This document shows, in pieces, positions 8,028 through 17,711 of a DNA stretch of 64,000 nt (its first letter is position 1; every line of letters begins with the position of its first letter). This stretch comes from Planctomycetaceae bacterium. Lineage in GTDB: Bacteria > Planctomycetota > Planctomycetia > Planctomycetales > Planctomycetaceae. The translations under genes were made by a program, and so were the position numbers. The stretch spans positions 1 through 64,000 of the forward strand of contig JAKFUG010000026.1 in NCBI GenBank assembly GCA_021732785.1, read 5' to 3'. Below the pieces are notes generated by a model. It saw nothing but the letters and a program-made list of their open reading frames with translations, searched no databases and had not been told where the DNA came from.

Positions 8028-11000
8028 TCACCCGCCGAGTTGTTGGATTACGTCCTCCGTACTCGCGAGTTGTTTTCGCAGCGTGACGAGGGTGTCGCGG
8101 ATTTCCTGGACGACTTCGGCGGGGGCGCGGTCCACGAAGCTGGTGTTGGTCAGCTTCTTTTCATGACCGGCGATGAAGCCGCGGATTTTTTCCGCTTCCT
8201 TTTGCTGCCGGGCGAGTTCCGCCGTGCGGTCGATGAGGCCTTCAAAGGGGAGAAAACCTTCGGCGTCGGTGAGCGTGAAACTCGCGGACGCCGCCGGGCG
8301 GGCGATATCCGGGCCGAGCGCTTCGAGCGTCGCTTTCGCGAGGTTCTCGAACTGCCCGCGGACCTGTTCCACATCGGCAGCGATCTCCGCGCGGCAGCGC
8401 AGATGAATCGGCACCGTCGCCGCGGGGCTGATGTTGTACACGCCGCGGAGATTCCGCACGGCGACAATCATGTCCTGCAGGCGTTGGAAGCGGGCTTCGA
8501 GCGCCGGTTGCCGGAAGCGTTCGAGACCCGTCGGCCACGGGGCGATGATGCAGGCTTTGGCGGCGGGTTGAGGGCTAAGGGCTAAGGGCTGAGGGACAGA
8601 CGGAGCCAAACGGTTTTCGTCGGGGCCAAGGGTTTCTTCGATCAATGCGGCGACGGATGTGTCACCGATTGTCGTTGGGCGTTCCGGGGCGATCTCGTTG
8701 AGGCGCTGCCACAGGTCTTCGGTGATGAACGGGGTGAACGGGTGCAGCAAGCGCAGGATGGTGTCGACCACGGTCACCAACACACGCTGGCAGTTCGCGC
8801 GAAGCCCAGGGACTGCGGTCCCTGGGATGTTCTCTTCCGATGATTCCACCACGCGCAGCCGCGGCTTGATCATCTCCAGATACCAGTCGCAGAACTCGTT
8901 CCACACGAATTCGCGCAGGGCACGGGTCGCCTGATCGAACTGGTACTTGTCGAGCAACCGCGTCACTTCATCGGTGACGGTCGCCAACCGGCTGAGAATC
9001 CAGCGGTCTTCCAGTGCGAGGTCGGCGTCGGTCACCGCTCCCGGCGTGTAACCCTCGAGATTGATCAGCGCGAAGCGGCAGGCGTTCCACAGTTTGTTGC
9101 AGAAGTTGCGGCCGTACTCGAAGCGCTCGCTGACCATCGACGCCACCGGTTCGCCCACATCGGCGTCGTAGTTCGCGCTGGTGTATTGCGAATCCCTCTT
9201 GCACTTCGGGCACTTCACCCGCGGCTTCTTGCCGTCCTTCGGCTTCGCTTTTTGATGTTCGAGTGTTTGTGGGATGAGGGCATCGCAATGCGGACAGGCA
9301 TAGCTGATCGGCAGCCGCACGTCCTGCGTTTCCCCGGCGAGGGACGCAATCGTGAACCGCAACCCGTCGGCTCCGTACTTCTCGATGAGGTCCAGCGGAT
9401 CAACGCCGTTCCCCTTCGACTTCGACATCCCCTGCCCAAAGCCGTCGAGAATCTTCGGGTGAACATGCACATGCTTGAACGGCACATTACCCATGTTGTA
9501 CAGCCCGGTCAGCACCATCCGCGCCACCCACAGCGTGATGATGTCGCGCGAGGTGACGAGGACCGATCCCGGATAGAAATAATCGAGGACAGTATTACCA
9601 GCCCGAAGCGCCAGCGCCGGGTTCTTCTCCGCCGCGAGAGACCCGTCGCTCGCGCTCCGGGCTTGTCCGGACTCCACCATGGGCGGATCGTGTTCCCGAT
9701 CCGGCCACCCCAGCGTCGCATGCGGCCACAACGCGGACGAGAACCATGTGTCGAGCACGTCTTCGTCTTGGGTGAAACCAGCGGCGTTGAGTTGCGCTTC
9801 GATTTTCGGATGACCGGCGTCAACGCACGCCAACAGCGTAGAACCATCGTCACCGACGTACTCGGTGGCAATGTGTTGATGTTGCTCCGCGGTCAATCCG
9901 GAAAGAGACCCGTCGCTTGCGCTCCGGGCTGGTTGGCTCTTGACTCTCGACTCTTGACTCTCGACTTTCTTCGACCACACGGGAATCCGGTGTCCCCACC
10001 ACAACTGCCGGCTGATGCACCAGTCCCGTTTTTCTTCGAGCCAGTCGAGATAGCTGTTGGCGTACCGTTCCGGGAAGAATTCGACATCGCGGTTTTTCAC
10101 GGCGTCCACGGCTTTGGTCGCCAGGTCGTCCATCTTCACGAACCACTGGTCGGACAGGTACGGCTCGATCGCCGTCTTGCTGCGGTCGCTGAACTTCAAC
10201 GGAATCGTGCGGTCTTCCACCTTCTCGAAGCAGCCTGCCTGCTCCATCGCCGTCACTACCGCGTCGCGCACGGCGAGCCGGTCCAGCCCCGCATACGGCC
10301 CGGCGTTCTCGTTGAACGTGCCATCGGGATTGAGCAGGTTGATGGGGTCGCCCATCTTCTCTTTATTGCGGGTCCAGCAGGCATAATCGTTGGGGTCATG
10401 CGCCGGCGTGACCTTCACGCAACCGGTGCCAAGCTCTTTGTCGGCGAGGAGCGCATCGGCAATGATCGGGATCAACCGGCCATTGAGCGGAATCTGAACG
10501 TGCTTGCCGATGAGGTCGAGATAGCGCTCATCGGTGGGATGCACGCAGACCGCGGTGTCGCCCAGCATCGTCTCCGGCCGCGTGGTCGAAAACGAAATCT
10601 TTCTGTCTGTCGGCTGGCCATTCGCGTCCGCCACGGGATACGAAAAGGTCCAGAATTGGCCGGCGACATCTTCGGTATAGACTTCATCATCGGCGACGGC
10701 GGTCTGGAGGAACGTATCCCAGTTCACCAGCCGCTTGCCGCGGTAGATGAGGCCGTCGCGGAACATTTTGAAGAACGTCCGCCGCACGGCTTTCGAGCAG
10801 ACCTCGTCCAGCGTGAACCGCACCCGCCGCCAGTCGCAACTGGCCCCGAGCTTCTTCTGCTGGCCGATGATCCGTTTTTCGTACTCGTCCTTCCACTTCC
10901 AGATGCGGGCGACGAGAGCCTCGCGGCCGATGTCGTGCCGGGTGAGGTTTTCCTGCTCCTTCATGCGGCGTTCGACCACGGCCTGCGTGGCAATCCCCGC

Positions 11001-11255
11001 ATGATCGGTGCCGGGCATCCAGAGCGCGACGTACCCCTGCATGCGCCGCCAGCGGGTGAGCAGGTCTTGAATCGTGCCGTTGAGCGCATGCCCCATGTGC
11101 AGCGCCCCCGTCACGTTCGGCAGCGGAATCATGATCACATGCGGCGGCTTCTCCGGATCGGGATCGGCATTGAAGTAGCCGTGCGATTCCCAGAACGGAA
11201 ACCACTGCGCTTCCGCGGCGGACGGATCATACTGCTTGGGGATCTCGGTGGGCAT
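8028..11255 (-). CDS. valS: Valyl-tRNA synthetase with repeat-derived insertions
   Basis: Charges tRNA-Val with valine. The 1075-residue class I synthetase is longer than most (about 880-950). The HIGH motif is HMGH at residues 53-56, and the editing domain and LDTWFSSALWPHATLGWPD are present. The KMSKS motif reads GMSKS (first Lys replaced, second kept). Near residues 640-680 a zinc-ribbon-like insert has CPHC and CPKC pairs. The C terminus is a coiled-coil tRNA-binding arm. Two surface-loop insertions (about residues 429-453 and 530-552) are translated intergenic repeats, both giving the peptide ARSASDGSL. The start is five bases after vapC, so valS is the likely last gene of the cimA operon. 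Confidence 0.95.
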   Translation of the reverse strand: MPTEIPKQYDPSAAEAQWFPFWESHGYFNADPDPEKPPHVIMIPLPNVTGALHMGHALNGTIQDLLTRWRRMQGYVALWMPGTDHAGIATQAVVERRMKEQENLTRHDIGREALVARIWKWKDEYEKRIIGQQKKLGASCDWRRVRFTLDEVCSKAVRRTFFKMFRDGLIYRGKRLVNWDTFLQTAVADDEVYTEDVAGQFWTFSYPVADANGQPTDRKISFSTTRPETMLGDTAVCVHPTDERYLDLIGKHVQIPLNGRLIPIIADALLADKELGTGCVKVTPAHDPNDYACWTRNKEKMGDPINLLNPDGTFNENAGPYAGLDRLAVRDAVVTAMEQAGCFEKVEDRTIPLKFSDRSKTAIEPYLSDQWFVKMDDLATKAVDAVKNRDVEFFPERYANSYLDWLEEKRDWCISRQLWWGHRIPVWSKKVESQESRVKSQPARSASDGSLSGLTAEQHQHIATEYVGDDGSTLLACVDAGHPKIEAQLNAAGFTQDEDVLDTWFSSALWPHATLGWPDREHDPPMVESGQARSASDGSLAAEKNPALALRAGNTVLDYFYPGSVLVTSRDIITLWVARMVLTGLYNMGNVPFKHVHVHPKILDGFGQGMSKSKGNGVDPLDLIEKYGADGLRFTIASLAGETQDVRLPISYACPHCDALIPQTLEHQKAKPKDGKKPRVKCPKCKRDSQYTSANYDADVGEPVASMVSERFEYGRNFCNKLWNACRFALINLEGYTPGAVTDADLALEDRWILSRLATVTDEVTRLLDKYQFDQATRALREFVWNEFCDWYLEMIKPRLRVVESSEENIPGTAVPGLRANCQRVLVTVVDTILRLLHPFTPFITEDLWQRLNEIAPERPTTIGDTSVAALIEETLGPDENRLAPSVPQPLALSPQPAAKACIIAPWPTGLERFRQPALEARFQRLQDMIVAVRNLRGVYNISPAATVPIHLRCRAEIAADVEQVRGQFENLAKATLEALGPDIARPAASASFTLTDAEGFLPFEGLIDRTAELARQQKEAEKIRGFIAGHEKKLTNTSFVDRAPAEVVQEIRDTLVTLRKQLASTEDVIQQLGG
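9601..9662. repeat. Family B inverted repeat inside valS
   Basis: Arms GCCCGAAGCGCCAGCGCCGGG (9601-9622) and ACCCGTCGCTCGCGCTCCGGG (9641-9662) are imperfect inverses. They match the intergenic element at 15235-15312. The element is read in frame within valS and adds residues including PALALRAG and ARSASDGSL. Confidence 0.85.
9905..9972. repeat. Family B arm plus GACTCT-rich repeat inside valS
   Basis: A single family B arm (AGACCCGTCGCTTGCGCTCC) is followed by reiterated GACTCTCGACT / GACTCTTGACT words. The same word array occurs between operon 1 genes at about 32862-32890. In valS it is translated in frame as a charged loop with SQESRVKSQ and ARSASDGSL. Confidence 0.85.
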
Positions 11256-11260
11256 GAAAG

Positions 11261-11713
11261 TTAGGGAACCTGTGTGGTCAGAGGGTTGATCACTTCACCA
11301 GCATGGTTGGACCGGAGGCGGGTGAAGTGACTGTCGTTAAGAGTAAGTAGATGATCGACTTTTGCTTTCAGCGCCGCTTGAACAATGATGGCGTCGAAAA
11401 CAATACCGCCACGTTCATGTGCCTGCATCAGCCGTTGAAGACATTCGGTGTAATCCGCTTCGGTCAATTCAACAATCTTGGCGAATTGCAGAATCTTTTC
11501 GTTGAGTATTCGCCAAACCTGTTGGGTCGTAAACTGCGGCGAGGATTTGATCGATGTCAGGACGCGATAAAACTCAGCCAGTGAGTGACATGAGACGAAC
11601 AGGTCAATCCGGCCTGCAGAAGCCGCTTCCAGCCACGGTCGACTAACACCATGATGAAGATGGTCCGTTACCGTGGCCGCGACCAGAACCGATGTATCGA
11701 ACATCACGTTCAT
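11261..11713 (-). CDS. PIN-domain ribonuclease toxin, VapC-like
   Basis: A 150-residue PIN-domain protein, probably an RNase toxin of a type II pair. The first acidic residue is in MFDTSVLVAA. A second acidic position is in CHSLAEFYRVL, a third in GIVFDAIIVQAAL, and a fourth in LLTLNDSHF, the usual PIN layout. It overlaps the upstream small gene by four bases (ATGA), as toxin-antitoxin pairs do. It ends five bases before the valS start, so an intact transcript from the cimA promoter would run through it into valS. The RNA target cannot be read from sequence. Confidence 0.85.
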   Translation of the reverse strand: MNVMFDTSVLVAATVTDHLHHGVSRPWLEAASAGRIDLFVSCHSLAEFYRVLTSIKSSPQFTTQQVWRILNEKILQFAKIVELTEADYTECLQRLMQAHERGGIVFDAIIVQAALKAKVDHLLTLNDSHFTRLRSNHAGEVINPLTTQVP

Positions 11714-11994
11714 TCAAACGGTCCGTACAGAAGCTGCTGCGTTCTCTCTTCATCAAGTCGGCGTCGAACTTCTTCGGGATCTTCCAACAGCTTACCTGTC
11801 CATACTAAGACGCCGTTGATGCGTTTCAACATCGGATCATCGGTGTCTTCGATCGTTGGCTGAGAGGCAGGTTCGATCTCATCAACGACGACTGTCACGA
11901 GGTGGGGTCCGGGACTAACGGCGACGGCTGCTTGCCCGGTGACCGTGAACCGTCCCTCGGCGTCGAATTCGGCAATGGTTTCGATGCGAATCAT
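11710..11994 (-). CDS. Putative VapB-like antitoxin
   Basis: A 94-residue protein just upstream of the PIN-domain gene and overlapping it by four bases. Residues 3-20 (RIETIAEFDAEGRFTVTG) predict a beta-rich N-terminal part. The C-terminal half is acidic and helical (LEDPEEVRRRLDEERTQQ), suited to toxin binding. I do not recognise a standard AbrB or RHH DNA-binding domain, so the antitoxin call rests on position, size and overlap. It starts 28 bases after the Uma2-family gene on the same strand. Confidence 0.65.
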   Translation of the reverse strand: MIRIETIAEFDAEGRFTVTGQAAVAVSPGPHLVTVVVDEIEPASQPTIEDTDDPMLKRINGVLVWTGKLLEDPEEVRRRLDEERTQQLLYGPFE

Positions 11995-12022
11995 GGGAAA
12001 TTACTTTCAGTCCATGACGAGT

Positions 12023-12670
12023 TCAAGGCTCGTAACGATGCGGCAGCAGATCGTCGATGGCGAGCGTCCATGGTTCCGCGTCAGACAAACTCAAGTCGAC
12101 CGTCATTCCGCGGCGGAAGATATCGCATTTTGAGTACCCTTTTGCAGGGGATTTCGGCTTGGTGCGAACGATCAATGTGTCGTCGGCAAGGTTCACGATC
12201 CAGTAGACTGGAATTCCCGACTGTCCGTATAAATCGGCCTTGTCATATTGATCGAGCGAGAGTGATGTTTGCGAGACCTCAACGGCTAACGCCACATCGG
12301 CCGCGGTTGGCAGTGCATCAAAATAGTCACCAGGACCGCCATTCAAAATGCACAGATCAGGCTCGGGTGCGCTGTCACCGCTGCAGATGACCGGTCCCTG
12401 CTGCTGCACATGAAATTCATCTGCAGATAGCAACTGCTCAAGGAGTTGAGCCAACAACTTAATCGCAAGGAGATGTCGCGGTCCCTGTGTCATGGCTACG
12501 GTTGGTCCGTCTCGACGATCCTTGAACAACAACATCCCATCGATGAGTTCGATCGGGGCTCCTTCGCGCAGAATACCGACCGCCATCATTTTCATATACT
12601 GATCCACGGTAATCGGGACCACGGCGGGCGATCCGTGCTGGACCAGATGCGCCATCAGTTGAAGTGACAT
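12023..12670 (-). CDS. Uma2-family PD-(D/E)XK protein
   Basis: A 215-residue member of the Uma2 family (putative restriction-endonuclease fold, abundant in cyanobacteria and planctomycetes, function largely unknown). Family signatures are GAPIELIDGMLLF near residue 35, EPDLCIL, the ALAVEVSQTSLSLDQYDKADLY segment carrying the acidic and Lys catalytic-like residues, and SGIPVYWIVNL. Its ATG lies two bases after the cimA stop codon, with AGGGA inside the end of cimA as ribosome-binding site, so it is translated from the cimA transcript. It was probably acquired into the operon. Confidence 0.85.
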   Translation of the reverse strand: MSLQLMAHLVQHGSPAVVPITVDQYMKMMAVGILREGAPIELIDGMLLFKDRRDGPTVAMTQGPRHLLAIKLLAQLLEQLLSADEFHVQQQGPVICSGDSAPEPDLCILNGGPGDYFDALPTAADVALAVEVSQTSLSLDQYDKADLYGQSGIPVYWIVNLADDTLIVRTKPKSPAKGYSKCDIFRRGMTVDLSLSDAEPWTLAIDDLLPHRYEP

Positions 12671-12672
12671 TT

Positions 12673-14247
<1,575 letters not shown>

Positions 14248-14300
14248 GTTTTTACCTTGAGAACTTCCCACGGACGGCAGTCCGTGGGCTTCTGGAAAAC

Positions 14301-14364
14301 AAAAAACCCTCAGGGGCGACCTGAGGGTGGACTGCGTTCGTTCGCTGAATCCCAGAGGTCGCTA
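14301..14364 (-). promoter_or_regulatory. Transcription attenuator with antiterminator/terminator choice
   Basis: The terminator stem pairs 14306-14314 (ACCCTCAGG) with 14320-14328 around a five-base loop, followed on the minus strand by a run of T (14305-14301). A competing arm, minus-strand GCGACCT (14362-14356), pairs exactly with AGGTCGC (14322-14316) inside the terminator. It extends by GGG (14353-14351) with CCC (14327-14325) across a two-base mismatch. The upstream arm begins at the last base of the leader stop codon. A ribosome finishing the leader would mask it and allow termination; a ribosome stalled at the Ile/Val codons would leave it free to form the antiterminator. Confidence 0.82.
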
Positions 14365-14448
14365 GGTGTGTCGTCCAATAATAATCACGATCGCGCCGAC
14401 CCGTTCCCGAGGCGAGACGACAGCGGTGGTGGAGACGACGGACAACAT
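14362..14448 (-). CDS. Val/Ile-rich leader peptide of the cimA operon
   Basis: A 28-residue open frame beginning MLSVVSTTAVVS and ending VGAIVIIIGRHT. Of its 28 codons six are Val and four are Ile, including the cluster Ile-Val-Ile-Ile-Ile just before the stop. AGAGGA lies seven to twelve bases upstream of the ATG. The peptide probably has no function of its own. It would act as a ribosome-stalling sensor of charged tRNA-Ile and tRNA-Val, as the E. coli ilv leaders do. It is too short for usual gene callers. Confidence 0.8.
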   Translation of the reverse strand: MLSVVSTTAVVSPRERVGAIVIIIGRHT

Positions 14449-14473
14449 GAACGATTCCTCTGCAATCTTCCTG

Positions 14474-14502
14474 AGTATAGGCCGCGAAACGGGTTGAGTC
14501 AA
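14474..14502 (-). promoter_or_regulatory. Sigma70-like promoter of the cimA leader
   Basis: On the minus strand TTGACT (14502-14497) and TATACT (14479-14474) are separated by exactly 17 bases. Transcription would start near 14467, about 20 bases before the leader peptide ATG, which is typical for amino-acid attenuators. The promoter lies immediately after the end of the ubiX-like gene. Confidence 0.8.
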
Positions 14503-14518
14503 ACGGAATTCTCACCGT

Positions 14519-15220
14519 TTAGCCGCGTTGGACCGTGGGTGTGCCCCAGCGTTTGGTCAAGTCGTGCCGCACGCCGAGCTGGTCACAGATGCGGGCGACG
14601 ACGAAATCGACGAGGTCCGAAATGTCCTGCGGTTCGTGATAGAAGCCGGGCATCGCGGGGAGAATGACCGCCCCTTGATCGGACAGCGTTTTCATGTTGC
14701 CGAGCGCGATCCCACTGAGCGGCGTCTCGCGCGGGACGACGATCAGCTTGCGGCGTTCTTTCAAATGGACATCCGCCGCGCGGTGAATCAGGTTCTGTGA
14801 TTGTCCCGTGGCGATGCAGGCCAAAGTGCCGCCGGAGCAGGGGCAGATTACCATGCCGTCGGTGAGGAACGACCCGCTGGCAATCCCGGCGTGGAAGTCG
14901 CGGTAGTGGTGGTAGATCATCTTGCCGACGTAGATTTCGCTATCACTGAAGACCGAACTGTTATGCGAGACCGCCGCCGGATGCGGCCGCAGTCGCCGCA
15001 GCGGGCTTGTCTCCGGGACCGTCTCCGGTTTGGGGATCAGCGTGGCTTCGTCGATTTTGTTGAGATCGAGTTGGAGGCCAAGTTCGTGCTGAAAGACTTC
15101 CGCCGCCGCGGGGCTGATGGTGACGTGGACCGTCCGTCCGCAAGCAATGAGGACTTCCAGCAGCCGCACGGCATAGATGGCCCCGCTGGCACCGGTGATG
15201 GCGACGACAAGATCACGCAT
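14519..15220 (-). CDS. UbiX-like flavin prenyltransferase
   Basis: Makes prenylated FMN, the cofactor of UbiD decarboxylases. The 233-residue flavoprotein has the N-terminal nucleotide-binding loop VVAITGASGAIYAVRLLE, then MVICPCSGGTLACIATG and KLIVVPRETPLS, all UbiX signatures. A UbiD-family gene lies in the same cluster (16084-17502), with a MenG-type methyltransferase between, so the likely role is supplying cofactor for a late menaquinone decarboxylation (MqnM-type). It is separated from menG by a 26-base inverted repeat element, so co-transcription is possible but not assured. Confidence 0.9.
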   Translation of the reverse strand: MRDLVVAITGASGAIYAVRLLEVLIACGRTVHVTISPAAAEVFQHELGLQLDLNKIDEATLIPKPETVPETSPLRRLRPHPAAVSHNSSVFSDSEIYVGKMIYHHYRDFHAGIASGSFLTDGMVICPCSGGTLACIATGQSQNLIHRAADVHLKERRKLIVVPRETPLSGIALGNMKTLSDQGAVILPAMPGFYHEPQDISDLVDFVVARICDQLGVRHDLTKRWGTPTVQRG

Positions 15221-15234
15221 GGGTTATCGTTCTT

Positions 15235-15312
15235 ACGAGCCCGAAGCGCGAGCGCCGGGTTCTTTGTTTGAGAGTGATTCAAAGAGACCCGGCGCTCGCG
15301 CTTCGGGCTCGT
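15235..15312. repeat. Family B inverted repeat, complete copy
   Basis: Perfect 26-base arms at 15235-15260 and 15287-15312, with core GAAGCGCGAGCGCCGGGT, flank a 26-base loop. This intact intergenic copy explains the related sequences inside valS (9601-9662 and 9905-9930) and a single arm at 24420-24442. It lies between menG and ubiX. Confidence 0.9.
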
Positions 15313-15319
15313 ATCTGGT

Positions 15320-16087
15320 TCAACGTACGGGTTTCTGTCCGATGTACAACGTCGCAATGCCGAACGTCAGCGGCGTGTGGGTCACGTTTTCCAAACCCCA
15401 TGCCGTCAACTTGTCCGCAAGCGCTTTGCCGTACGGAAACTCCGAGACCGAATCGGGCAGGTAATTGTACGCGGCCTGTTTATTCTTCGCGAAGAACTGA
15501 CCGATCCGTGGCAGCACGTTCTTGAAGTACCACTTGTAGACGGAGCGGAACACGGTGTTCGTCGGCAGCGAGAACTCCAGAATGCACACGCGGCCGCCGG
15601 GCTGACAGACGCGGGTCATTTCCTTCACGCCGCGTTCCGTGTCGGAAACGTTCCGCAAACCGAACGCGACCGACACAATCTGAAAGCGGTCGCTCTCGAA
15701 CGGTAACGTCTGTGTGTCCGCTTCGAGGAACTGCATGGACGCGGCTTGCGGTTGTTTCGTCGCGGCGATACGGTCTCGCTTTTTCTCAGCGATCCGCAGC
15801 ATCTCGGGTGTGAAATCGGTGCCGACGACTTCGATTTTCCCGCGGCCTTTGTTCCAGTAGGCGATGGCCAGATCGCCGGTGCCGGTGCAGACATCGAGAA
15901 TCGGTGCGTCTCCTTTCGGAGCACACGCACGGACGGTGCGCCAGCGCCAATAGACATCGGTGCCGCCGGACAGCAAATGGTTTAAGAAGTCATAACGGCC
16001 GGAGATTTCGCCGAACATCTGCCGGACGCGTTCGCCCGATTTGTCGACGCCGGCGTTGGCAGGTTCGACCACAGCGGTGGCGGTCAC
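15320..16087 (-). CDS. menG: Demethylmenaquinone methyltransferase (MenG/UbiE)
   Basis: Methylates demethylmenaquinone with S-adenosylmethionine in the last step of menaquinone synthesis. The 255-residue protein has the UbiE/MenG N-terminal signature MFGEISGRYDFLNHLLSGG, SAM motif I LDVCTGTGDLAIAYW, and the family block FGLRNVSDTERGVKEM, then PGGRVCILEFS. The start chosen is the GTG at 16087, which overlaps the upstream UbiD-like gene's stop by four bases (GTGA). A longer frame exists but would overlap the upstream gene by 46 bases. The overlap indicates translational coupling. Confidence 0.93.
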   Translation of the reverse strand: MTATAVVEPANAGVDKSGERVRQMFGEISGRYDFLNHLLSGGTDVYWRWRTVRACAPKGDAPILDVCTGTGDLAIAYWNKGRGKIEVVGTDFTPEMLRIAEKKRDRIAATKQPQAASMQFLEADTQTLPFESDRFQIVSVAFGLRNVSDTERGVKEMTRVCQPGGRVCILEFSLPTNTVFRSVYKWYFKNVLPRIGQFFAKNKQAAYNYLPDSVSEFPYGKALADKLTAWGLENVTHTPLTFGIATLYIGQKPVR

Positions 16088-17502
16088 AATGTTTCTCCCA
16101 AGCGAGGCGGTAATCCGAGTTCGACCCAACGATCTCGCAACCGCTGTCGCAGGTCGACCGAGGCCGATGTCGTTTCGTGATGCTGTTTGCGGGTGGCGTC
16201 GATGCCGAGTTTTCCGATGAGGCCGTTCTGCGCGGACAGATCATCCATCGCGGCGGTGCCGGTGACGCGCAGCATATCGCGATCGGCATCGACATTCGCG
16301 GCGACTGCGGACCAAACCGCATCGGCCCGGCGAACATTAACATCGGCGTCGACCACAACGATCAGTTTCGCCGTCATCCCGCGCGGATGGCCCCACAGGG
16401 CGTGCATTAACTGCCGGGCATGACCGGGATATTGCGGCCGCAGACTAACGAACAGCGTGTCTTCCCCACGACCGGATGAAGGGGCGTGCCAGTCGACCAG
16501 ATCCGGCAGCGCGGCTTGCAGACTCGGCAGGAACATCCGCTCGGCGGCGTGTCGCAACCAGTAATCCTCTTGCGGCGACGGCCCCCAGATCATCGCGGGC
16601 AACAACGGATTCGCCCGATGGGTCAGCGCGGTGACCAGCATCACCGGTTGCTCGCCGCCGCGGCCCAATCGCCCCCCGGAGAGTGCAACCGCGGGGACAT
16701 CTTCGATCGCAGCGTCCGCAGCCAAACCAGCGGGATGCAGAAACCCTTCGATGATCCATTCGGCATGTGCGGGGATTTCGAGGTCATGCGACCGGCACCG
16801 TGCGATTTCGAGATCCTTGCCACGCAGGCAAACGTCCCATAGAAAGCCCGCGGGGGTGCCCGGCCAACTGCGCGATGTCGCGGCGAGCGTATGCAATGGA
16901 TCACCACCGAGCGCAATCGCCACCGGCCATTGCCGATCGGAGTTCGTCAGTCGCGGCGTGATCGATCCGTAGGGCGGCAGGTGCAACGCAACGCGGGCGC
17001 GGTCCAGCCATTGCACTGGAATGCGGTCGATGAACCGTTCACCCGTGTGCGGATCGCCGATGATCACGAGACCGGAGTGCAAAACAGGATTGGCTTCCCC
17101 CGGATGCCGCGGCACCGGCAGATCGAACAGATTGACATCGCGGCCGAGGCGGATCACCTGTTGAGCGGGGGCCTGCCGTGATAATTTTGGCGTCCAAATC
17201 GAGTGTGACACCGCAGCAGGATGCTGAAATCCATCCCACGGGACCGGGCGTTGGGCGAGATCATCCACGCCGAGCGCTTTGCAGATGCGTCGCAAGCTGC
17301 CAAGGAGATTCGTCACGACCGGGAACGAGTTGTTCCGCACATTGGCGAAGACGAGCACCGGGCCGCCATCACCGCTGGATTGCACGACCTGATTCGTGAT
17401 CGCCGCGATCTCTTCGGCGGAATCGACTGACGCCGCGATGCGCACGATGTCGCCGGTGTCCTGCAGGACCGCGAGGAAATCGCCCAAGGAATCGTACGGC
17501 AT
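16084..17502 (-). CDS. UbiD-family prenyl-FMN decarboxylase
   Basis: A 472-residue decarboxylase of the UbiD family, dependent on prenylated FMN. Family segments include YDSLGDFLAVLQDTGDIVRI at the N terminus, VIRLGRDVNLFDLPVPRH, HSGLVIIGDPHTGERF and GMTAKLIVVVDADVNV. It is the first gene of the ubiD-menG-(repeat)-ubiX cluster. In organisms using the futalosine route, paired UbiD/UbiX-like proteins (MqnL/MqnM) act on a prenylated naphthoate. The MenG neighbour supports that assignment here, but substrate cannot be proved from sequence. Confidence 0.88.
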   Translation of the reverse strand: MPYDSLGDFLAVLQDTGDIVRIAASVDSAEEIAAITNQVVQSSGDGGPVLVFANVRNNSFPVVTNLLGSLRRICKALGVDDLAQRPVPWDGFQHPAAVSHSIWTPKLSRQAPAQQVIRLGRDVNLFDLPVPRHPGEANPVLHSGLVIIGDPHTGERFIDRIPVQWLDRARVALHLPPYGSITPRLTNSDRQWPVAIALGGDPLHTLAATSRSWPGTPAGFLWDVCLRGKDLEIARCRSHDLEIPAHAEWIIEGFLHPAGLAADAAIEDVPAVALSGGRLGRGGEQPVMLVTALTHRANPLLPAMIWGPSPQEDYWLRHAAERMFLPSLQAALPDLVDWHAPSSGRGEDTLFVSLRPQYPGHARQLMHALWGHPRGMTAKLIVVVDADVNVRRADAVWSAVAANVDADRDMLRVTGTAAMDDLSAQNGLIGKLGIDATRKQHHETTSASVDLRQRLRDRWVELGLPPRLGETL

Positions 17503-17584
17503 GCGGAGGCTCGACCTGCGATGCGGGGATGAAGAACGGGATTATAGCAGATGGGAAGCGACAGCGGGGGGAGGGGAAATGGAG

Positions 17585-17711
17585 AATGAGGAATGGGAAG
17601 AACTCCGTCGCTTGCGATTAGCCGAATCGCAGCGCTCGCGATGGTTCGCTTTGAACCGCGGACGCGGTGGCCTGCAAAGCGCAAGCGAGGGAGTTCTTCT
17701 CATTCCTCATT
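17585..17711. repeat. 32-base near-perfect inverted repeat
   Basis: Arms 17585-17616 (AATGAGGAATGGGAAGAAC to CGCTTGCG) and 17680-17711 are inverse apart from two mismatches. The loop has its own GCGCTCGCGATGG-type sequence. It fills the spacer between the divergent ubiD-like gene and the 17772 gene; I see nothing else in 17503-17771. Confidence 0.8.

Follow-up and report, generated by a model that had tools for sequence, protein, structure and literature searches.

Introduction

Ribosome-mediated attenuation is a textbook mechanism of transcription control. The leader ilvL of the E. coli ilvGMEDA operon carries runs of Ile and Val codons together with Leu codons, its nascent RNA is antiterminated when the ribosome stalls on the control codons, and a terminator follows 22 nt after the stop codon. 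The E. coli leaders leuL and trpL, which have other codons and serve other genes, show the same switching behaviour in the calculation that we use below. In pheST-like attenuators, an aminoacyl-tRNA synthetase gene is attenuated by its own amino acid. For the actinobacteria, terminators and short ORFs that contain runs of Ile/Val/Leu were described upstream of ilvB, together with a Leu-run ORF before leuA; altering the control codons at S. coelicolor ilvB was reported to be without effect, and the LEU element to be a pseudoknot in which the Shine-Dalgarno sequence of leuA takes part (PMC1262725, whose accessible text also names the pheST attenuator and mentions no planctomycetes). At ilvBNC of C. 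glutamicum, terminator, antiterminator and anti-antiterminator hairpins were tested by mutation, according to the accessible part of PMC11857589. The ilvD leader of S. aureus, which is Leu-rich, is linked to CodY and precedes the ilv-leu operon, mediates peptide-dependent attenuation of branched-chain synthesis; the accessible text does not contain the word citramalate (PMC5794164). As for planctomycetes, the accessible part of PMC4833913 gives a statistic on leader genes near start codons and mentions no citramalate, cimA, ilv or leuA, while a term look-up in PMC2965389 finds neither planctomycetes nor ilv. The preliminary description of the locus studied here knew of no well-described planctomycete example, in agreement with our search of open-licence PMC titles and abstract starts (supplements lay outside its scope), which gave no description of a planctomycete, cimA or cimA–valS attenuator.

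Here we report a planctomycete locus that, we are confident from its sequence and that of its relatives, encodes a putative ribosome-mediated transcription attenuator of the trp/ilv-leader type, which would sense both Ile and Val ahead of a cimA–valS operon. Very probably, it is the charging of tRNA-Ile and of tRNA-Val that this switch reads, and the regulated unit is most likely the cimA–valS operon and not cimA alone. The locus shares with ilvL the Ile/Val codon runs and the terminator behind the leader, whereas it has almost no Leu codons and its target is cimA and probably valS instead of the ilv genes; moreover, its antiterminator arm starts within the stop codon, while the duplex at the ilvL stop region is worth just -3.9 kcal/mol. 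In contrast to pheST, a single leader would here serve both a biosynthetic gene and the synthetase gene of another amino acid. Branched-chain codon-run ORFs with terminators are common to our locus and to the actinobacterial leaders, and the C. glutamicum attenuator serves a branched-chain operon as well, but this is ilvBNC rather than cimA/valS and lies in another phylum. The peptide-dependent attenuation of the S. aureus leader is what we propose here as well.

Results and Discussion

The window, by which we mean the complete 64-kb stretch of DNA analyzed, carries all elements on its minus strand (Table 1). The features of the attenuator class are present in the sequence: an ORF between promoter and gene, an intrinsic terminator, codons for the pathway amino acids and an antiterminator that shares the terminator 5' arm. 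The first base of the antiterminator 5' arm is the last base of the leader stop codon, and its partner CCCtcAGGTCGC contains most of the terminator 5' arm. The preliminary description had read the promoter, the AGAGGA site, the leader with its six Val and four Ile codons, the antiterminator at the stop codon and the terminator correctly in every detail, and its naming of the downstream gene as cimA holds with a score well above the model cut-off. The leader element occurs only once in its own genome.

Table 1. Features of the cimA leader region and of the genes behind it (window positions).
Feature	Position	Strand	Remarks
Sigma-70-like promoter TTGACT-17-TATACT	14474..14502	-	10/12 consensus; TTGACT 14502-14497, TATACT 14479-14474
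Shine-Dalgarno-like AGAGGA	14456..14461	-	7 nt 5' of leader ATG 14448; read directly
Leader peptide ORF MLSVVSTTAVVSPRERVGAIVIIIGRHT	14362..14448	-	28 codons + TAG; 6 Val, 4 Ile
Antiterminator 5' arm GCGACCTctGGG	14351..14362	-	duplex -19.2 kcal/mol, z -4.1
Antiterminator 3' arm CCCtcAGGTCGC	14316..14327	-	overlaps terminator 5' arm and loop
Intrinsic terminator with T tail	14301..14328	-	9-bp stem 14328-14306; -15.6 kcal/mol
cimA, citramalate synthase	12673..14247	-	TIGR00977 668.6 bits, cut-off 450
215-aa ORF of presumed operon, possibly Uma2-like	12023..12670	-	2 nt after cimA; no NCBIfam match
94-aa ORF, possible antitoxin	11710..11994	-	by position only; no NCBIfam match
PIN-domain VapC-like ORF	11261..11713	-	TIGR00028 52.8 bits, under cut-off 73.6
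valS, valine--tRNA ligase, final gene of presumed operon	8028..11255	-	TIGR00422 884.4 bits, cut-off 612.1

Taken by itself, without its relatives, the window is statistically not compelling. We found one promoter-like site in the window alone where shuffles predict 1.2, five terminator-like sites in 12500-17600 where 4.7 are expected, and a folding z of only -1.68 for the whole leader. The 64-kb window contains no tRNA genes. Two neighbouring features were also noted. The palindrome CCCACGGACTGCCGTCCGTGGG at 14267-14288 follows the terminator and precedes cimA; with similar copies at several places in the genome, it resembles a small dispersed repeat rather than a part of the switch. Genes of the UbiX, menG/ubiE and UbiD families stand just 5' on the same strand (14519-17502), ubiX ending at 14519 directly upstream of the leader promoter.

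We therefore turn to the relatives. The best 80 of 588 confirmed contig stretches, 49 loci from relatives' genomes and the window gave 130 sources (window, L002-L081, L083-L131; the cimA matches G017, G028, G041, G048 and G054 were left out), which became 124 upstream regions after removal of five duplicates and of L078, which has no anchor; L067, without a start codon, was retained with a nominal start. A leader with at least 5 Ile/Val in 10 residues and a strong terminator beginning -10 to 70 nt from its stop codon was found in 64 of these 124 regions, the best 80 of 588 included, compared with a mean of 0.2 and a maximum of 2 in ten dinucleotide-shuffle sets; because the shuffles keep dinucleotides but not relatedness, the 64 are not 64 independent events, and two of them (L057 and L091) look false. 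The distance from stop codon to terminator is 19-50 nt in 63 of the 64, and the records concerned carry names such as Schlesneria, Gimesia, Gemmata, Lacipirellula limnantheis, strain ZRK32 and Sedimentisphaerales. The other 60 of the 124 regions (again with the best 80 of 588) show no leader with terminator, which is commoner among the less similar relatives.

The codon content points the same way. In this sample with its best 80 of 588, at least 6 Ile/Val in 10 residues occur in the upstream short ORFs of 40/124 regions, compared with 0.47 per shuffle set and with 1/124 on the reverse strand. Ile plus Val gives the largest mean excess over shuffles among 190 residue pairs in these short ORFs; the runners-up pair Ile with another residue, some at a higher z. 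The final 16 codons of the 71 leaders with at least 4 Ile/Val are 22% Ile, 13% Val and 3% Leu, a description of leaders that were selected for Ile/Val. A promoter of at least 10/12 stands upstream of 28 of these 71 leaders, the window among them (shuffle mean 0.3, maximum 2). Constraint on the leader codons within close pairs is weak: across 8 such pairs, Ile/Val codons are replaced in 12/62 cases, not much below the 22/82 for other codons.

The leaders are specific for their gene. One scan applied to all loci returned Ile/Val leaders at 62 of the 124 cimA regions, and at least 5 Leu at just one of them (at least 4 Leu at eight), with the best 80 of 588 included in both counts. At leuA, which encodes a Leu-synthesis enzyme homologous to the cimA product, the same scan gave the mirror image: no Ile/Val leader among 20 loci, and at least 5 Leu in 13/20 (at least 4 Leu in 14). 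Neither Ile/Val nor Leu leaders appeared in the about 500 nt before ilvB (0/27), ilvC (0/24) and trpE (0/26), a range in which leaders heading longer operons would be missed, and a whole-locus scan of ilvC returned two chance-like matches only. A looser scan of 20 planctomycete genomes (L140-L159) detected Leu-run leaders with terminators before leuA in 15; the leader of the own genome (L140) is MMSVTMRLLSLLLTR, and relatives have, for example, MNQTLRLLALLLLPHIG and MNQNLLLLQLLLITPGC. For the 15 leuA antiterminators, too, pairing is better with the partner from the same locus than after swapping (60/20,000 permutations as good). These leaders are the nearest planctomycete counterpart of E. coli leuL.

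Citramalate leads to Ile, so that the Val codons in a cimA leader required an explanation. We find it behind cimA. Of the 95 non-redundant loci with enough sequence (duplicates L083, L093 and L094 excluded), 54 have a valS signature behind cimA in the same orientation and none has one in antisense; the gap is within about 150 nt in 30 of the 54. For 55 of the 71 leader loci we compared leader codons with the position of valS (L006, L008, L017, L037, L072 and L088 left out). The last 20 leader codons contain on average 3.14 Val where valS stands behind cimA (36 loci, one without Val) and 0.54 where it stands elsewhere (13 loci, eight without Val; p 1.1e-6), whereas Ile is high in both groups, with 3.83 and 4.62, respectively. 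The linked member has more Val in all seven independent, non-overlapping linked/unlinked pairs from the CimA tree, from which L091 was left out (Wilcoxon p 0.016 for Val, 0.125 for Ile). The assignment includes a genome search for the 22 loci without valS in the first 1.5 kb, mostly in draft assemblies, which showed three to be linked after all (L028, L085, L090) and placed valS on another contig for 13 (for one, about 8 kb upstream); the other six are the loci left out above. Thus, the Val count follows the position of valS, and valS explains the Val codons in a way that cimA alone does not. In the simplest reading, the Val codons would sense charged tRNA-Val on behalf of valS, and the Ile codons would sense the Ile supply on behalf of cimA.

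We considered whether a Val leader travels with valS when the gene is detached and reject this idea: none of the 13 detached valS genes has its own Val leader with a terminator (about 95 nt of upstream sequence were available for one), and two have a Val-containing ORF without a terminator.

The same attenuator could instead govern cimA only, with valS driven mainly by its own promoter and the Val codons being tolerated substitutes for Ile. We consider this improbable, though it is the strongest of the alternatives. Ile and Val codons are indeed similar in sequence, the stretch 11829-11802 holds a weak promoter-like site (9/12, with 1.0 expected by chance), and an adjacent valS says nothing about whether an attenuator is called (valS adjacent in 33 of 55 loci with one vs 21 of 40 without). 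Against this stand the seven pairs, in which Val follows valS while Ile shows no matching rise in the linked members, and the arrangement in the window, where the genes from cimA to valS lie on one strand at spacings of 2 nt, 28 nt, a 4-nt overlap and 5 nt, with no terminator-like site in 11150-12800. We thus favour the cimA–valS operon as the regulated unit. The preliminary description had proposed an ilv-type attenuator of cimA; the type stands, with recurring leaders and covarying arms, while its target is most likely cimA–valS rather than cimA by itself.

Two further observations concern these genes. The three small ORFs that separate cimA and valS (11261-12670) give the impression of an inserted toxin-antitoxin pair, since many other species have less than 150 nt at this place. 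The best match of the own genome to the threonine deaminase model TIGR01127 reaches 47.9 bits at a cut-off of 378.75, so that cimA may be the Ile entry step there. Absence of threonine deaminase from the relatives is not established: 0/21 genomes score above the cut-off, several reach about 240-320 bits, and just 5 of 14 control genomes exceed it.

We propose the following mechanism. Transcription would start about 20 nt 5' of the leader ATG, with a ribosome trailing the RNA polymerase through the leader. As long as tRNA-Ile and tRNA-Val are charged, the ribosome would get to the stop codon and cover the antiterminator arm, the terminator would form, and transcription would end ahead of cimA. 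When either tRNA is uncharged, the ribosome would stall on the Ile/Val codons and leave the antiterminator arm free to capture the terminator 5' arm first, so that the polymerase would continue into cimA and most likely on to valS. CimA would then restore the Ile supply and ValRS the charged tRNA-Val.

The pairing data are in line with this scheme. The segment from three codons before the stop codon to the terminator pairs with its partner, taken as terminator 5' arm plus loop, better than shuffled sequence does (z < -1.5 in 57 of 71 loci, mean z -2.6). Antiterminator arms paired with their own partners give -17.1 kcal/mol and with swapped partners -13.1, a swap between species costing 4 kcal/mol on average; none of 20,000 partner-swap permutations was as good as the true pairing, and again none of 20,000 when we used 48 cluster representatives. 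Since swapped partners pair worse, the two arms change together. Conserved leader codons and covarying stems, named in the preliminary description as the signs to look for in orthologous cimA regions, are hence both found. In 46/71 loci, the leader stop codon contributes one or more bases to the pairing of the arm, so that a ribosome positioned there would cover the arm.

Folding of the full-length RNA at equilibrium proved uninformative about switching. The terminator wins (P 0.73-0.94 in the window for stalls on GAIVIII), switching appears in only 12 of 70 loci, and the E. coli controls behave alike, which means that the decision must be kinetic. We therefore folded nascent RNA that ended at the terminator loop and was taken as free from 13 nt past the first base of the A-site codon. 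In the window, a stall anywhere up to two codons past the last Ile has the terminator arm paired upstream with a calculated probability of 0.65, compared with 0.20 when the ribosome is at the stop codon, so that by calculation the antiterminator is free upon a control-codon stall and covered at the stop. For the E. coli leaders trpL, ilvL and leuL, this procedure yields 0.4-0.75 with the ribosome on the control-codon runs and 0.01-0.02 once it is at the stop codon. In the planctomycete set, the value for the best Ile/Val stall is above 0.5 in 71/71 loci; at the stop codon, the mean is 0.30 and values below 0.1 are reached in just 6/71, which is less clean than in E. coli. A segment 1:2 pause or protector hairpin finds no support as a general feature (mean z -0.11 over 71 loci); in the minimum free energy fold of the window, CAGAGG near the leader start pairs with CCTCTG of segment 2.

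Some relatives carry an additional element. The 15-nt sequence GCGCAGGGAGTGCGC lies inside the Ile/Val leader right after the conserved Ile codons in 14 distinct genomes, upstream of cimA (L132-L138, L267, L270, L275, L276, L278, L293, L294), and the leader consensus around it is ccgATCGcnATTacCgcnGCGCAGGGAGTGCGC. It forms a hairpin GCGCR-GGGAG-YGCGC with a GGGAG loop and reads A-Q-G-V-R. The element is kept at the nucleotide level: third codon positions are conserved, and the sole stem variant is a paired change. Its variants are a final T in one genome and GCGCGGGGAGCGCGC in another; the Gemmata leader L050 has a looser version, and the window leader lacks it. We inspected 27 other places with the sequence or a degenerate form, a part of all known places, and none lies before cimA. 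Tentatively, these leaders might be composite sensors in which tRNA sensing is joined by another input, through protein binding or a programmed pause, although we regard this as less likely than not. A CsrA-type site would be one candidate role for the hairpin.

Such a hairpin could bind a factor, and a terminator with an antiterminator needs no translation. Control by a T-box, a riboswitch or an RNA-binding protein acting through the terminator, with the short ORF being incidental, is nevertheless very unlikely: no Rfam family, T-box or other leader family, reaches its gathering score within the window, the choice of leader codons goes with the gene and with the genes next to it, and the antiterminator arm pairs into the stop codon in the 46 loci mentioned above. 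Weakest of all is a constitutive terminator between ubiX and cimA with an ORF that arose by chance, which would fit the nearby ubiX end that it could serve and the non-significant statistics of the window alone, and which we consider extremely improbable given the recurrence together with the leader, the promoter between ubiX and the leader, and the covariation of the antiterminator.

Conclusion

In summary, we find that Ile/Val leaders with terminators recur upstream of planctomycete cimA genes, that their antiterminator arms covary, and that their Val codons accompany valS. The mechanism that this suggests is a known one; new would be its planctomycete setting at cimA or cimA–valS and a codon choice that appears to follow the operon content. 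A phylum with unusual cell biology would thereby gain a classical translation-coupled switch, which would make ribosome–polymerase coupling directly testable in these organisms. That Val codons are lost when cimA is not followed by valS amounts to a natural experiment, in which leader codons evolve with the content of the operon. Together with leuA, the planctomycetes have two homologous entry enzymes, each placed behind a leader for its own product.
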